Assembly: GCA_027030635.1 (NCBI GenBank)
Contig: JALVES010000135.1
Location: 1 to 36,271, forward strand
Reading direction: 5' to 3'
DNA length: 36,271 nucleotides
From: Saprospiraceae bacterium
GTDB taxonomy: Bacteria > Bacteroidota > Bacteroidia > Chitinophagales > Saprospiraceae
Position 1 is the stretch's first letter, and every line of letters starts with the position of its first letter. A program made the translations under genes and the position numbers. The notes under the pieces were generated by a model. It was not told the DNA's origin. It ran no database searches and was given only the letters and a program-made list of their open reading frames with translations. Of this stretch, positions 1 through 23,922 are shown piece by piece.

Positions 1-91
1 CAACATAAGTAACGACGCGGCCGTCTTCCAACTCTCCAAAGAGGTGTTTGCCTTTATCTAAAGTCATAGCTCTTCCATTTTGCGAAAGCAT
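1..91 (-). CDS. Possible N-terminal part of an unidentified protein running off the left window edge
   Basis: Minus-strand frame reads MLSQNGRAMTLDKGKHLFGELEDGRVVTYV... without a stop to position 1. An alternative start is the ATG at 67. Too short to identify. Confidence 0.3.
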   Translation of the reverse strand, partial: MLSQNGRAMTLDKGKHLFGELEDGRVVTYV

Positions 92-11131: not shown

Positions 11132-12259
11132 TCAGGCTTTTAGCTCTTCTTCATTGGTCTTGCCTTCTGCCCGCTGGGCACGCTTGGCCTTTCGTTTGGC
11201 GACAGCCGAAGCTATGGCATGAACGCCTATACCGGCAGCCACTGCCCCCGTAACCCCCATGCCAATTTTATCGGCTGTGGATTCTATGCCAAAACCTTTC
11301 AATCCCGTCAGGCGTTCGTAGAGCGGACCGTTGTCCCAGAAGTTTTCCTCGCTGCAACCGATACAACCGTGGCCGGATTGAATGGGATAGCTCACGCCAT
11401 TGTTCCAGCGCATGGAACCACAGGCATTGTAGGTCATCGGGCCTTTGCAACCCACCTTGTACAGGCAGTAGCCTTTCCTGGCATTTTCATCATCAAAATG
11501 CTCGGCAAACAAACCTGCATCGTAATAAGGCCGACGGTAGCAGCTGTCATGCACGCGCTTGGCATAGAAAGCCTTCGGGCGCCCGATTCTGTCTAATTCC
11601 GGCAAAGTCCCAAAAGTCAAAACGTGAACGATGACCCCTGCCATCACCTCGCCTATGGGCGGGCAACCCGGCACTTTCACAATGGGCTTGTCTTTGATGA
11701 TCTTGTGAATGGGCGTCGCGCCTGTCGGATTGGGATAAGCCGATTGAACACAGCCATTCGAAGCACAGCTGCCCCAGGCAATGATGGCCTTGGCACCGGC
11801 TGCAGCCTCTTTCAACTGCTCCAAAGCCGTCTTACCTGCTATGCAGCAATACTGCCCGTCGTCTTTCAAAGGCACGGAACCCTCCACACAGAGAATGTAC
11901 TCTCCATGATACTTCTCCATGGTGGCATGCTTGGCCGCCTCGGCCTGCTCACCGGCCGCAGCCATCAGCGTCTCCGTGTAATCCAAGGAAATCTTGTCCA
12001 AAATAATGTCTGCCACGATGGGATGGTCCGAGCGTATGAAAGACTCACTGCAACAGGTACATTCCTGGTAATGCTCCCAAATGACCGGCACACGGGGCGT
12101 GTTTTCCAAAGCATCTGCAATCTGGGCAATAGCCGACGTCTTCAAACCCATGTAAGCCGCCATAAAAGTGGCAAACTTCATGAAATCCCGTCGCGTATAA
12201 CCCATCTTAATAATGGCATCAAAATACGTTTCCCGCTTGTCTGATTTTACCATGATCAA
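11132..12259 (-). CDS. [NiFe]-hydrogenase small subunit, Tat-exported, 6-Cys O2-tolerant type
   Basis: Tat motif YTRRDFMKFATFMA; ECTCCSES proximal-cluster motif with supernumerary Cys; WGSCASNGCV; C-terminal membrane anchor (GMGVTGAVAAGIGVHAIASAV). Very similar by eye to Ralstonia HoxK. Confidence 0.97.
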   Translation of the reverse strand: MIMVKSDKRETYFDAIIKMGYTRRDFMKFATFMAAYMGLKTSAIAQIADALENTPRVPVIWEHYQECTCCSESFIRSDHPIVADIILDKISLDYTETLMAAAGEQAEAAKHATMEKYHGEYILCVEGSVPLKDDGQYCCIAGKTALEQLKEAAAGAKAIIAWGSCASNGCVQSAYPNPTGATPIHKIIKDKPIVKVPGCPPIGEVMAGVIVHVLTFGTLPELDRIGRPKAFYAKRVHDSCYRRPYYDAGLFAEHFDDENARKGYCLYKVGCKGPMTYNACGSMRWNNGVSYPIQSGHGCIGCSEENFWDNGPLYERLTGLKGFGIESTADKIGMGVTGAVAAGIGVHAIASAVAKRKAKRAQRAEGKTNEEELKA

Positions 12260-16308: not shown

Positions 16309-16944
16309 CTACTTCGGCATCTGCAACAAAAAATCCTTAAAACCCGCTACCACCTTCACCAGCTCGTGCATGCCTCCGCTGCCCGATGAAATCAGCGCAG
16401 CAGAGAAGACCAGGTCTATGGAACGGAAAAGAATGTGCTGCACAGTGCTGAGCTGTGAAGTGTCGAAGACGTGGGAAAGCAAAGAAAAACCCGAAAGGCT
16501 GATGAGCAGGCCGATCACAAACAAAGTCAACAGAATGCTGTACTCGCGCTGCTTGCGCAACCTGTACAGACGCTCCTCCTTCTTGCGCAACAAAGTGTGC
16601 AAATCCGCCGGACTTTCAGCGCCGAAAACAGCCATGACCTCAGAGGTGCCGGGTACATCTCCAGCCGGATTCATGGCTGCCTGCAGGCGGGCTATATCGG
16701 CCTTCAATTCCTCCTTTTCCTCCTCATGCGTGTCCCGCACAAACAACTCCACAAAGCGCTCCGCCAACAAAGTAACAAGAAAGATGCCGCCGAGAAAACT
16801 CCAAAAATTCAGCGTCTCATCCGTAACGCGAATCTCGTAAAAGGGTATGTGCGAAAAGTCCAGATAAGCCACTAAGGCAACCACGGCGATAATCAACAAT
16901 ACAGAGACAGAAGCCCAACGCCTGAGATATGGATTGTTTTTCAT
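16309..16944 (-). CDS. Hypothetical membrane protein
   Basis: About 4 predicted TM segments with a charged coiled segment between them. Start at MKNNPYLRRW (16944). Confidence 0.65.
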   Translation of the reverse strand: MKNNPYLRRWASVSVLLIIAVVALVAYLDFSHIPFYEIRVTDETLNFWSFLGGIFLVTLLAERFVELFVRDTHEEEKEELKADIARLQAAMNPAGDVPGTSEVMAVFGAESPADLHTLLRKKEERLYRLRKQREYSILLTLFVIGLLISLSGFSLLSHVFDTSQLSTVQHILFRSIDLVFSAALISSGSGGMHELVKVVAGFKDFLLQMPK

Positions 16945-16980
16945 GGTAAGAAGGTTTTTTCTATGCCTAAACCGAAGTAA

Positions 16981-17016
16981 CAGTTTGGGCGGGGTAAGCC
17001 GCCCAAACTGCTTTTT
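16981..17016. terminator. Hairpin terminator candidate between glnS and the downstream membrane-protein gene
   Basis: CAGTTTGGGCGG-GGTAAG-CCGCCCAAACTG, perfect 12-bp stem. The U-tract (CTTTTT) lies on the + side, the minus side is poorer, so orientation is uncertain. Confidence 0.6.
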
Positions 17017-18694
17017 ATTTCTTCCTTGCAGCAATTTTTGCCCAGGCATCCCTGAGGCCCACCGTGCGATTAAAGACCAGATGATCGGCGCTGCTGTCAG
17101 AATCTTTGTAAAAATAGCCTTTTCTCAGGAATTGCAGGTACTCGCCATCCTCCACCTCCCGAATGGCCGGCTCTGCCATGGCCTTTGGCAAGACTTCTAA
17201 AGAATTCGGGTTAATGAATTCCTTGAAATCCCTCCCCTCATGCCCCATCGGGTTGGGATCAGAGAAAAGGCGATCGTACAGGCGCACCTCCACGGGCACG
17301 GCATGAGCCGCCGAAACCCAGTGCAAAGTGCCCTTCGCCTTGATGCCCGAAGTGTCGGAGCCCGAACGACTGTCCGGAAAATAAGTAACATGCACTTCTG
17401 TAACCTCTCCGGCCTCGTTCTTCACGAAATCGTCGCAGCGCACGATGAAGGCATTCTTCAGACGCACATGCCGGCCCGGCCCGAGGCGGAAGAACTTCTT
17501 GGGCGGGTCCTCCATAAAGTCTTCGCGCTCGATATACAGGTATTTGCCGAAAGGCATCTCCCGCTCCCCCATGCTTTCGTCTTCCGGATTGTTCACCGTT
17601 GACATCATTTCCGTTTGGCCCTCGGGATAGTTGGTGATGACCAGTTTGATGGGATTCAGCACCACCATCAGGCGCTTGGCTCGCTTGTTGAGCTCCTGGC
17701 GAACGAAATGCTCCAGCAAACTCAGCTCGATGATGTTTTCCCGCTTGGCTACGCCTATGTGCTCACAAAAATTGCGGATGGCCTCCGGCGGATACCCCCT
17801 CCTGCGCATGCCCGAAAGCGTGGGCATACGGGGGTCGTCCCAGCCGCTGACGTGCCCTTCCTCCACCAACTGCAGCAGGCGGCGCTTGCTCATCACCGTG
17901 TAGTCTAAGTTGAGGCGCGCAAATTCAATCTGACGGGAAGGGTAAATCTCCAGTTCCCGTATAAACCACTCGTACAAAGGGCGGTGGTTTTCAAACTCCA
18001 GGGTGCAGAGTGAATGCGTAATGTGTTCGATGGAGTCGCTTTGCCCATGCGCAAAATCATACATGGGGTAAATACACCAGGCATCGCCCGTGCGGTGGTG
18101 CCGGGCGTGTTTGATGCGATACATGAGGGGGTCGCGCAGATGCATGTTGGGCGAGGCCATGTCAATTTTGGCGCGCAACACCTTGCTGCCATCCGGAAAC
18201 TCGCCCGCCCGCATGCGCCTGAACAAATCCAGGTTTTCCTCCACACTGCGATCGCGATAAGGGCTGGGCGTGCCCGGCTCAACAGGCGTGCCCTTCATGG
18301 CGGCAATCTCTTCGGCCGTGGAGTCATCCACATAAGCCTTGCCCTTTTTAATCAGCCTTTCGGCAAATTCGTACAACTGCTCAAAGTAATCCGAGGTATA
18401 ATACTCGCGCTCGCCCCAGTCATAACCCAGCCAACGGATGTCGTTCTTGATGGACTCCACGTACTCCGTCTTTTCCGTCGTCGGATTGGTATCGTCGAAG
18501 CGCAGGTTTGTCAGGCCGCCGTACTTCTCAGCCAGTCCGAAGTTGAGCACTATGGACTTGGCGTGGCCAATGTGCAAATAGCCATTTGGCTCCGGTGGAA
18601 AACGCGTGTGTATCTGCTCGTACTTGCCTGCTGCAAGATCCTCGCGGACAATCTCCTCGATAAAATGATAGCTCTCTTGTTTTTTTTCTTCCAT
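17015..18694 (-). CDS. glnS: Glutaminyl-tRNA synthetase
   Basis: [40 protein letters not shown] motifs. Start at [11 protein letters not shown] (18694); the listed 5' extension lies in argS. Confidence 0.96.
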
Positions 18695-18708: not shown

Positions 18709-20562
18709 CTACATGCGTTCGGGCATTTCGATGCCCAATAAGGCCATTCCGCGATGCAGTGTACGGCCCACGACCCGGGCCAGACGCAGACGAAACGCCC
18801 GTGCCACCACATCCCCGGCAGAAAATATCGGCAACTCGTGCCACATTTTGTTAAAGGTCTTCGCCAATTGGTACAAATGACTGGCCAGATGGGAAGGATC
18901 ATACTCCAAAGCAGCCTGCTCAACCACTGAAGGAAATTGATGCAGGCCCATCAGCAATGCACGTTCTGAAGGATGTAAGGCCTCATAATTAACTGATTCA
19001 GAAAGACTTATGCCCTCCTTCTGAATCCTTCGCTCTAAGCCTCTGATGCGCACATAAGCGTACTGCACATAAGGCCCTGTTTGCCCCTGCAAATCCACAG
19101 ATTCGGCGGGATTGAAGGTCATCCACTTAGCCGGATTGACTTTCAGCAGGTAAAACTTCAATGCTGCCAGGCCCACTTTGCGGTTGATTTCCTCTCGCTG
19201 CTCCGGGGGCAATTCGTCCTGCCCTCCCCTTTCCTCTGCATTTTTGCGGGCTTCGGCTATGACTTCGGCTATAAGGTCATCGGCATCCACGACGGTACCT
19301 TCGCGCGATTTCATCTTGCCCTCGGGCAGCTCAACCATGCCATAAGAGAGGTGATAGAGCTTATCCGCATAAGGCTCTCCGAGGCGCTTGAGCAATTCGA
19401 ACAGCACTTTGAAGTGGTAATTTTGCTCATCGGCCACCACATAAGTCATTTCGTCCATGGCAAAATCCTCATAGCGGAGATGGGCTGTCCCCAGATCCTG
19501 AGTGATATACAGGGTTGTGCCATCGCCTCTCAGCAGCACTTTGGTGCCCAGCCCCACATCTTCGAGGTCCACCTGCACCGAGCCGTCTTCGGCTTTAAAG
19601 AACAAGCCCTTTTCCAGGCCTTTTTCCACCATTTCCCGTCCGAGCAGGTAAGTATCGCTTTCGTAGTAGTTTTTGTCGAAAGAGATTCCCAGTTTTTCAA
19701 AAGTTTCCTCAAAGCCGGCATAGACCCAGCCGTTCATTTGAGCCCAGAGCGCACGCGTATCGGGTTCGCCCTGTTCCCAGCGCAGCAGCATCTCGCGGGC
19801 TTGTCGCCCGAGTTGGCTGTAGGTGTTGAAATATTCGTTTTTGAAGACTTTGAAAAAGTCCTTTTCCGTTTGGTCTTTTTTTCGCCTTTCGGCAAATACG
19901 GCCCTGGCCTCTTCACTCGCCTGCCAGGCTTCGTATTCGGCCATAAACTGCTTTTCAAAGGCTACATACCACTTGCCCACAAAGTGGTCGCCCTTTATTC
20001 CTGTATTTTCAGGCGTCTCCCCTTTGCCAAACAACTGCCAGGCCAACATGCTTTTGCAGATGGCAATGCCCCTGTCGTTGATGACCTGTACGCGCCAGAC
20101 CTTTTTGCCCAACTCCTCCTGCAAAAGCGCACAGGAGGCGCCCAGCAGCATGTTGCGCAAATGGCCCAGGTGCAAAGGCTTGTTGGTGTTGGGCGAGCAG
20201 TATTCAATCACCAGCTTTTGGCCCTCACCCCGCGAGTTGCTGCCCCAATCGTCTTTTTGCTCCACCTCTTCGAGGAAGCGCAGCCAAAAATTTGCCGAAA
20301 GGCTGAGATTCAAAAAGCCCTTCACCACATTGAAAGCGCTGACCTCCGGGTACTTCTCTATTAGAAAGGCACCAATTTCTTCTGCAATCTGTGGCGGAGC
20401 TTTGGACAGGGCTGAGGCCAGAGGAAAAGTTACCAAAGTGAAATCCCCCTCGAAATCCGTGCGCGTAGGCATGATTTGCAGCTTCTCAGCCGGTAATTCG
20501 CGATCAAATTTTTCGCTTATGGCTCCGGCAATGGCCCGGCGCAAAAAAGAAACCATATCCAT
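18709..20562 (-). CDS. argS: Arginyl-tRNA synthetase
   Basis: [24 protein letters not shown] signature, anticodon domain, C-terminal ...GIEMPERM. Confidence 0.97.
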
Positions 20563-20622
20563 AGGCAGTTCTTATGAGAAACTGCAAAGATACTACAAAT
20601 TTTAAGGCGGGAAAAGACAGAC

Positions 20623-20657
20623 AAAAAAAGCGGGAGGCGCACAAAGCAACCTCCCGC
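20623..20657 (-). terminator. Strong intrinsic terminator upstream of argS
   Basis: Minus strand GCGGGAGG(TTGCTTTGTGCG)CCTCCCGC then TTTTTTT. Confidence 0.85.
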
Positions 20658-20746
20658 CTCAATTTAGTAATCACAAACTTTTACCCTCCGACAAGGAGTT
20701 CTTTGAGAGGGTTTGTCTTTCAAAAGGCCGTCAAAACAACCTTTCC
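20623..20746 (-). ncRNA. Predicted small RNA or argS leader RNA, ~120 nt
   Basis: Minus-strand promoter at 20782-20751, three possible stem-loops, intrinsic terminator GCGGGAGG-N12-CCTCCCGC followed by 7 T on the minus strand. No convincing ORF. Confidence 0.5.
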
Positions 20747-20750
20747 GGTG

Positions 20751-20782
20751 CAAAGATACGAGCTCTTTTTCAAAGATCCAAA
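20751..20782 (-). promoter_or_regulatory. Bacteroidota-type promoter in the intergenic region (TTTG-N20-TATCTTTG)
   Basis: Minus strand TTTG at 20782-20779, TATCTTTG at 20758-20751, 20-nt spacer. Confidence 0.6.
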
Positions 20783-20799
20783 TTTTTTTGAAAAAAAAT

Positions 20800-21543
20800 T
20801 TAAAAACCTCCCGGACGGTACTGATCTTTATCGTCATCGGGCTTAATCATGCGCTCTCCGCCAAAGGGCATGTGGAAGCCGAGCATGATGGCTGTAATCC
20901 AATCTTTGCTGGAAGGATTGCCCAAAGCGCTGATGCCGTCTATGTAATCGGAAAAAGGCGTCATCAGGCTGGCCTCTAAGCTGAGATTCCAGCTGTTTGT
21001 GGGAGCAAAGCGCAGACCTCCGCCAAAAGGAAAGAGCACGTAAACGCCTTTGCTGTTTTCTTCATCCTGTTGGATGGTTTCAGCAGGGGCATTGATCTGG
21101 TTGTAATTGACATTGTGATTGACAAACCCCACGCCTGTACCGAGGAAGATGTAAGGGGAAAGCTTGCGGGAACTCGCCGGATCACCTGCTACGCCAAAGG
21201 GCGAATACTCCGCCACGAGCAGAATGCTGCCGATTTTTGTAAGCATGCGGCCGCCACGCTCCTCTATGCTCGGGTAAAGGCTGTCGTCGCCTGAAATTTT
21301 CAGATACCAGAGGCGGGCTCCAAGCGCTACCTGGGGCGACAAAAAATTGCGCACGCCAAAGCCCAGAGCAAATTCGCTGCCCTTGAGGGTAAAATTGGGC
21401 TCGACCATATCACCCTGATAAGTAGAAAGCCCCGCATAAGCACTGCCCTCCCAGGTACCTAAACCCATCTGGGCATTGACTGCAGCAGGGAAGCCAACAA
21501 GAGTAGTTAGAAAAATAACGGCAAAAAGTAAAACACCTTTCAT
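20800..21543 (-). CDS. Outer-membrane beta-barrel family protein
   Basis: Signal peptide (MKGVLLFAVIFLTTLVGFPAAVNAQ), alternating beta-barrel-like sequence. Start at 21543 preferred. Confidence 0.8.
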   Translation of the reverse strand: MKGVLLFAVIFLTTLVGFPAAVNAQMGLGTWEGSAYAGLSTYQGDMVEPNFTLKGSEFALGFGVRNFLSPQVALGARLWYLKISGDDSLYPSIEERGGRMLTKIGSILLVAEYSPFGVAGDPASSRKLSPYIFLGTGVGFVNHNVNYNQINAPAETIQQDEENSKGVYVLFPFGGGLRFAPTNSWNLSLEASLMTPFSDYIDGISALGNPSSKDWITAIMLGFHMPFGGERMIKPDDDKDQYRPGGF

Positions 21544-21637
21544 GACTATTGTTTTTGCGATGAACAAAATAAGCCGGTATGGGATACAATCAGTTCGCGT
21601 AGAACGCTGCCAAATTTTAATCTGTCAGTTCGACTTA

Positions 21638-21736: not shown

Positions 21737-22621
21737 ATGAACAAAATCATGATACATCCCCAAACAGGCATTCGTGCCAAAGGACGACTGATAAGCACAG
21801 AGCACCCGCTCATCATGGGCATTCTAAACCTCACGCCCGACTCTTTCTTTGATGGCGGAAAGTACCAGGACATCCCACAAGCCTTACGGCATGCAAAAAA
21901 GATGCTGGAAGAAGGCGCCGACATCATAGATGTGGGCGGCATGTCCTCCCGACCGGGAGCCCGTCTGATCACAGCAGAAGAAGAATGCAAACGCGTACTG
22001 CCCCTGATTGAGGCCCTGCACGAGGAACTCCCCGATGCCGTCATTTCCATAGACACCATCTATGCTTCCACAGCCCGCAAAGCCATAGAAGCAGGCGCCG
22101 CCATCATCAACGACATCTCTGCAGGGCGCATAGACCCCGGGATGTTTCCCACTGCAGCAGAGCTGCAGGTGCCTTACGTCCTCATGCATATGCAAGGCCT
22201 GCCACACAACATGCAACAGCATCCCGTCTATGAAGATGTGGTGCGCGAGGTCTTCGACTTCTTCACAGAAAAAATCGGCAAGCTGCGGCAGCTCGGCCTG
22301 CACGACATCATTCTCGACCCGGGCTTTGGCTTTGGAAAGACCCTGGCGCACAACTATACGCTTTTGCGCCGGCTCTCTGTCTTCCGCGCTTTTGACATGC
22401 CCCTTCTCGTGGGTATATCCCGAAAATCCATGATCAACAAAGTGCTTAAAACCACACCGACCCAAGCTCTCAATGGCACCACAGCCGCGCACGTGCTGGC
22501 CTTAGAGCAGGGAGCCAACATCCTGCGCGTACACGATGTAACCCCGGCCCGTGAAGCCATTGCCATCCGGGAGGCATTCCACAACATTGAGCCCGTGAAT
22601 AACTCCACAGATTTAGTATGA
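21737..22621 (+). CDS. folP: Dihydropteroate synthase
   Basis: MGILNLTPDSFFDGG, DVGGMSSRPGA, ILDPGFGFGKT, VGISRKS motifs. -7-like TAACTTTG at 21717-21724. Confidence 0.96.
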   Translation: MNKIMIHPQTGIRAKGRLISTEHPLIMGILNLTPDSFFDGGKYQDIPQALRHAKKMLEEGADIIDVGGMSSRPGARLITAEEECKRVLPLIEALHEELPDAVISIDTIYASTARKAIEAGAAIINDISAGRIDPGMFPTAAELQVPYVLMHMQGLPHNMQQHPVYEDVVREVFDFFTEKIGKLRQLGLHDIILDPGFGFGKTLAHNYTLLRRLSVFRAFDMPLLVGISRKSMINKVLKTTPTQALNGTTAAHVLALEQGANILRVHDVTPAREAIAIREAFHNIEPVNNSTDLV

Positions 22622-23922
22622 GCCCGACCACGTCACTGACAGAAAACCAAATCAAGAAAATAGCGCTTGCCTACCTCAGGCATTATTACCGCTTCCGCCC
22701 GCGAACGGAAAACGAGGCTTCCCTGGCGCTCTTAGACGTCCGGCTCGGAGGAGACATCAAGGCAGATGTCATGCTCATCTTCTGTAAACCCGAAGCCATC
22801 CATACCCTTGGCTCCTTCAAAAGTGATGAACAAAAAATTCGTGAGCTCGTCTCTAAAAACCAATGCAACTTCTTCGCTACCTGCGAAGCCACCTCACGGG
22901 ACGTCAAAGAAGAGCTCTACTACGATTTTGACAAAGACCTTTGGCTTCTTGACAGCCTCGCCTTCGGGCTCTTTCTCACCACCGGTTTTTTCATTTATGC
23001 AGAGCTGTTCCCACACTGGTTCCCCGGTTTTTTGCAGCTGTTGCTACAGCCTTTTGAAAAACATCAGCCGTTCCTGCTTGGAGGGGTGGCCGTAGCCCTG
23101 AACTTCTTTACAATATCCATCAGCGCACTTATCGGCCTGTACAGCAAGAGATTTAACATCCGCTACCGGTATATTCACGCCTTACAACAGTTCGAGGAGT
23201 ACGATGCCGATGAACAATGGGTCGCCTTTTCCAAAGAGGTCTTTGAGGAGGAGCATCCCAAAAGCGGAGAAAAAATTTATTGGAAGAAAAACGAATACTA
23301 TCAGGAACTCCACCGCCAGGCCCTCAATGCCGGTGTCGGCCTGCTCGCCATTGATGAAAAGAAAAATGTCATACCCATCATCACCCCCCGCCGAAAAAAA
23401 CTAAGAATCAAAGAAGACCGCAAAAAACGAACCTGGCAAAAAATCGCCCGGGCTGTAAGCCTCCCAAAAACTAAACAAAAAACCGAAAAACTGCACGCAC
23501 AGCTCCACGCCAAAGTCTCTAACCATCAATTCGGGCACTCCTATGTACCCCCAATCCTGTTCTCTTTGGTGTTTCTGTTTATCATTGGCCTGAGCATCTA
23601 TCGTCACTACACCCTGCGCCCGGGAGCCAGATGGTCCTCCCACGCAGCCGAACTCAAACACTGGCAGGAGCAAAAAAACCAACCCGTCACCCTGACCGAA
23701 TTGCAACGCCAAAGATTGGCCCTCTCGGCCTTCATAGACACCCCTTTTTGGCCTGTAAACCTGCCCTTTCTCTTCGACTCCACAACTTACATAGACCCCA
23801 TCCTGCTCAAAATACAAAGACGCAAACCCGAAAACCGCATCTTTGGCCCCATGCTCCCGCAGGAAGATACGAGCTACACCGAAGAAACCGAAAGCCATAC
23901 CCCCCCTGACAGCGGCCATTAA
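22618..23922 (+). CDS. Hypothetical membrane protein; N-terminal domain possibly PD-(D/E)XK-like
   Basis: Overlaps the folP stop by 4 bp. Two central TM segments and one C-terminal TM. N-terminal ...LGGDIKADVMLIF...FFATCEATSRD is only suggestive of a nuclease-like fold. Confidence 0.6.
   Translation: MSPTTSLTENQIKKIALAYLRHYYRFRPRTENEASLALLDVRLGGDIKADVMLIFCKPEAIHTLGSFKSDEQKIRELVSKNQCNFFATCEATSRDVKEELYYDFDKDLWLLDSLAFGLFLTTGFFIYAELFPHWFPGFLQLLLQPFEKHQPFLLGGVAVALNFFTISISALIGLYSKRFNIRYRYIHALQQFEEYDADEQWVAFSKEVFEEEHPKSGEKIYWKKNEYYQELHRQALNAGVGLLAIDEKKNVIPIITPRRKKLRIKEDRKKRTWQKIARAVSLPKTKQKTEKLHAQLHAKVSNHQFGHSYVPPILFSLVFLFIIGLSIYRHYTLRPGARWSSHAAELKHWQEQKNQPVTLTELQRQRLALSAFIDTPFWPVNLPFLFDSTTYIDPILLKIQRRKPENRIFGPMLPQEDTSYTEETESHTPPDSGH

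Follow-up and report, generated by a model that had tools for sequence, protein, structure and literature searches.

In the 36,271-nucleotide stretch of DNA analysed here (the window), from an uncultured member of the Saprospiraceae, the gene for arginyl-tRNA synthetase, argS, lies downstream of an outer-membrane beta-barrel gene on the same strand, and the interval between the two carries a promoter and an intrinsic terminator that would together delimit a short non-coding RNA (Table 1). Two reading frames elsewhere in the window, at 16309-17049 (246 aa) and 22618-23922 (434 aa), beside glnS and folP, gave no Pfam match.

Table 1. Features of the argS upstream region, with tRNA-like RNAs of other Saprospiraceae (last three rows, positions within the loci named)
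Feature	Positions	Strand	Basis
Outer-membrane beta-barrel gene, upstream neighbour (DUF6089/OMP_b-brl-like)	20800..21567	-	Pfam; G001 has an ortholog at the corresponding locus
T8-C-A7-TTTG tract (T-tract/A-tract) running into the -33 box	20779..20799	-	Tract also seen in tRNA and rRNA promoters of this genome; BLAST matches
sigma-ABfr-type promoter of the candidate RNA, TTTG-N20-TATCTTTG	20751..20782	-	Pattern match and published consensus (PMC7366714)
Predicted non-coding RNA, about 125 nt	20623..20748	-	Start placed by the -7 box, 3' end by the T run
5' hairpin AAAGGUUGUUUUGACGGCCUUU	20722..20745	-	z -2.7, p 0.012 against shuffles
Second, weaker hairpin GACAAACCCUC...GAGGGUAAAAGUUUGU	20675..20718	-	z -1.45, p 0.09; no better than shuffles
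Intrinsic terminator, 8-bp GC-rich core stem and T7	20623..20661	-	Fold z -5.1 against shuffles
-7 box TATCTTTG of argS's own promoter, downstream of the terminator	20585..20592	-	Conserved in G001/L004
argS, arginyl-tRNA synthetase (downstream neighbour, outside the RNA gene)	18709..20562	-	Pfam PF00750, PF05746, PF03485
tRNA-like RNA, L171	1678-1836 and 1928-2086	+	
tRNA-like RNA, L174	1622-1741	+	
tRNA-like RNA, L181	149-270, partial second copy 1-60	-	

The preliminary description of this DNA had proposed a minus-strand TTTG-N20-TATCTTTG promoter, a strong terminator with an 8-bp GC-rich stem and seven T, and a second box that could drive argS, and each of these was found in the sequence. 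The -33 TTTG occupies 20782-20779 and the -7 TATCTTTG 20758-20751, on either side of an N20 spacer, and the sigma-ABfr consensus boxes are TTTG and TAnnTTTG (PMC7366714). Five promoters of this form occur in the window against 0.68 expected per shuffled window, and only that of the candidate RNA has a strong terminator in the next 400 nt (1/5). In that terminator, which begins about 93 nt from the promoter, GCGGGAGG (20657-20650) pairs with CCTCCCGC (20637-20630) ahead of the T7 (20629-20623), at -24 kcal/mol (z -5.1); a simple terminator scan missed it solely because its loop exceeds 8 nt.

Behind the terminator, the argS promoter TATCTTTGCAGTTTCTCAT is identical over 19 bases in the sister species of the same genus (G001/L004), where the order is the same outer-membrane gene, a terminator of different sequence, the argS promoter and argS, with nothing else between. 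In 24 of 29 relatives the 150 nt before argS contain a TAnnTTTG box, compared with 1 in the reversed control (Fisher p 2e-10), and the argS leaders of these relatives are short and contain no element like the candidate RNA. The conservation of TATCTTTGCAGTTTCTCAT, together with the boxes in relatives, indicates that argS is served by a separate promoter behind the terminator.

A promoter of the tRNA and rRNA type

The tRNA promoters of this genome share one layout, consisting of a T-tract, an A-tract, TTTG, about 20 nt and TATCTTTG. We took a T-tract/A-tract before TTTG, together with the TATCTTTG box, to define a tRNA/rRNA-type promoter, and the promoter of the candidate RNA has both. The tract precedes 9 of 23 tRNA units in the genome but only 3 of 86 other TAnnTTTG boxes (Fisher p 3e-5), and one of those three is the promoter directly before 16S rRNA. 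Among 398 genomes of the family, the promoter segment 20790-20748 gave five BLAST matches in four genomes, each immediately upstream of a tRNA gene (Val in three cases, Cys and Phe in the others). ARAGORN confirmed four of the five tRNAs; at the fifth locus (L104) the contig ends within the gene, but what can be seen of it opens with the same tRNA-Val sequence. Promoters of this type are not confined to stable RNAs, since pattern searches in relatives found similar boxes on some mRNAs. What is new here is that the predicted promoter, by virtue of its T-tract/A-tract, is of the lineage's tRNA/rRNA type.

Promoters at several other loci are also of note. In the same genome, 16S of the rRNA operon is preceded by a tandem pair of TAnnTTTG promoters, GTACCTTTGCAGCCGC and GTATCTTTGCATTCCC, within the last ~400 bases of contig C47 (L118, minus strand), and the second of the pair bears the T-tract/A-tract. 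Another tRNA-type promoter, on contig C189 at about 11712-11759 (L155/L185), has no tRNA within the 100 nt remaining to the contig end and possibly belongs to another rRNA or stable-RNA unit. In the sister species one and the same promoter, AAAATTTGCATTTTATGAAAAACCGCTGTATCTTTG, occurs on three contigs (L145, L157, L163), with near-identical leaders behind two and the contig end at the third; these loci represent a repeated gene family, probably mobile or duplicated.

The same promoter cue, a tRNA/rRNA-type promoter with no tRNA behind it, also led to a conserved tRNA-like RNA of 120-159 nt in three Saprospiraceae genera, arranged in tandem in two. It has the acceptor CUGUGAGG/CCUCACAG, the T-arm GGUUCGAAUCC, an invariant CCCUC-UUGUCUC-GGGGG arm with GUC at the anticodon position, and a variable arm of great length that contains GGGAUAAAC/GCUAAC. 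Rfam gave no match over cut-off, the best family being tRNA-Sec (18.5 bits against 47), and ARAGORN calls a tRNA only with an assumed intron, with an anticodon that differs each time. It was absent from viral contigs (exact pattern) and from the phages searched.

Structure and distribution of the predicted RNA

The whole candidate RNA folds at -46 kcal/mol (z -3.7 against shuffles), a value due to its terminator (z -5.1) and 5' hairpin (z -2.7). Without the terminator, the body is not clearly above chance structure (z -1.4, p 0.10, shuffles). Three features are real: the promoter, the terminator and the first hairpin. A small hairpin at the predicted start is also common in the tRNA leaders of this genome. 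The label 'structured' fits the remainder of the RNA only weakly. Of the two internal stems that had been put forward, AAAGGU/GCCUUU holds up (p 0.012), whereas CCCUC/GAGGG is present but not above shuffles (p 0.09). The statement that there is no AUG is likewise correct as far as ATG is concerned, but it passed over a UUG-started frame of 19 codons, MKDKPSQRTPCRRVKVCDY, which contains three Arg codons. It starts within the 3' arm of hairpin 1 and runs to a stop codon adjoining the terminator. Pairing of the RNA with the start regions of 23 ORFs of the window gave nothing outstanding.

The RNA had been said to match no known family, and our Rfam scan agrees: even at permissive E-values it returned only chance matches far below cut-off, none over a gathering threshold. 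Neither RF00005 (E up to 5) nor ARAGORN detected a tRNA or tRNA remnant in the body. BLAST found no homologue of the body in 101 relatives or in the 398 family genomes, and a single-sequence covariance model run on 61 genomes gave three weak matches with E of 0.015-0.04 per genome, which equals chance expectation. Phage and plasmid collections yielded no real match, and viral contigs contained no exact 29-mer of the RNA. A 30-nt match of 90% to the middle of the body in one genome (G326) was taken as chance; it appears, judged by eye, to sit in coding DNA.

At the same locus in the sister species the RNA is absent, and it is thus not essential in the genus. In the nearest genome, that of a relative whose ArgS is 95% identical (G002), the assembly has a gap at precisely this point: its contig opens within argS, and the outer-membrane gene is lacking as well, so that the comparison is with the sister species. 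On this distribution, the predicted RNA gene is lineage-specific, through gain here or through loss in the sister species. Such orphan status is no argument against a small RNA, given that 27 of the 49 high-confidence intergenic sRNAs of B. thetaiotaomicron are strain-specific (PMC7366714).

Interpretation of the locus

We favour, with a probability of roughly two in three, the reading that the interval is an independent transcription unit for a non-coding RNA of about 125 nt that ends in an intrinsic terminator, with argS transcribed separately. We infer that a strong sigma-ABfr promoter of the tRNA/rRNA type would fire at about 20748, that the nascent RNA would form its 5' hairpin at once and that it would end at the GC-rich terminator. 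The same terminator probably also stops the mRNA of the outer-membrane gene arriving from upstream, and argS would be transcribed from its own promoter just behind it. Of the two readings left side by side in the preliminary description, an independent sRNA and an attenuation leader for argS-glnS, the former is the better supported and has been strengthened by the type of its promoter, and the latter is disfavoured. In B. thetaiotaomicron, intergenic sRNAs with a start site and a terminator are treated as high confidence (PMC7366714). The candidate shows two of the features by which intergenic sRNAs of Bacteroidota, a class and not a family, are recognised, its own sigma-ABfr promoter and an intrinsic 3' terminator, and it is most probably an orphan intergenic sRNA, specific to its lineage and of a sort that is common in Bacteroidota. 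By analogy, the likeliest putative function would be that of a trans-acting, base-pairing sRNA.

A non-functional remnant, that is, a tRNA-type unit (promoter, leader hairpin and terminator), transcribed or not, whose tRNA was lost or replaced, would also account for a promoter and 5' hairpin like those of tRNA units, for a body with little structure and no homologue, and for the absence of the RNA from the sister species. We consider this unlikely, as no trace of a tRNA scores in the body and promoter and terminator are both intact. It is improbable, too, that the interval does no more than provide the outer-membrane gene with a 3' UTR and a terminator, the promoter-like sequence going unused. 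No other GC-rich terminator lies behind that gene, and in the sister species a terminator follows it directly, but a promoter that matches in full, is of the tRNA type and recurs in extended form before tRNA genes is unlikely to be an accident, and the terminator may well serve both transcripts.

A leader in which an antiterminator competes with the terminator to control argS, or argS-glnS, perhaps through translation of a short Arg-containing frame, would explain the position of the element directly upstream of argS on the same strand, and both an alternative pairing, CCCUCUCAA:UUGAGGCGGG, and a frame with three Arg codons are available. Such attenuation is nevertheless very improbable. Because argS has a conserved promoter after the terminator, its transcription would not depend on read-through; the antiterminator duplex, at -14.6, is no better than shuffles (mean -14.9, p 0.52); and no such leader is found at argS in 29 relatives. 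Moreover, a frame that starts within the 3' arm of hairpin 1 and stops next to the terminator does not have the classical geometry and is wrongly placed for ribosome-mediated attenuation.

If the independent sRNA is transcribed, the few sRNAs known outside Bacteroides gain a further, lineage-specific member. That it is in addition an abundant, growth-rate-controlled sRNA of a new family, driven by its tRNA/rRNA-type promoter and perhaps derived from an old tRNA unit in which the tRNA was replaced, is a speculative extension to which we give little credence; were it true, such replacement would be a birth route for bacterial sRNAs. As a practical cue, a T-tract/A-tract with TTTG-N20-TATCTTTG and no tRNA behind it may flag candidate stable RNAs in uncultured Bacteroidota.

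Comparison with known systems

With attenuators of the trp-leader type in amino-acid genes, whether controlled by the ribosome or by a protein, the candidate shares a terminator placed shortly before the gene of an aminoacyl-tRNA synthetase, but it differs in the argS promoter behind that terminator, an antiterminator at the level of chance and the absence of a plausible leader-peptide geometry. 6S RNA (RF00013) is likewise small and has a promoter and a terminator of its own. Its architecture is one long bulged rod, whereas the candidate consists of three separate hairpins and has no Rfam match at permissive thresholds. The tRNA units of Saprospiraceae resemble it in the T/A-tract promoter, the TATCTTTG box, the 5' hairpin of the leader and the GC-rich terminator, and differ from it in that the candidate transcript contains no tRNA. 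To the high-confidence sRNAs of B. thetaiotaomicron, such as GibS and BTnc231, it has no similarity in sequence or by covariance model (13 bits with the BTnc231 model against a cut-off of 80), and it is set apart from them by its tRNA-type promoter and by being a predicted RNA. Yet in overall design it is like them, for they too are intergenic RNAs of 100-150 nt, many of them strain-specific, with their own TAnnTTTG promoter and an intrinsic terminator (PMC7366714).
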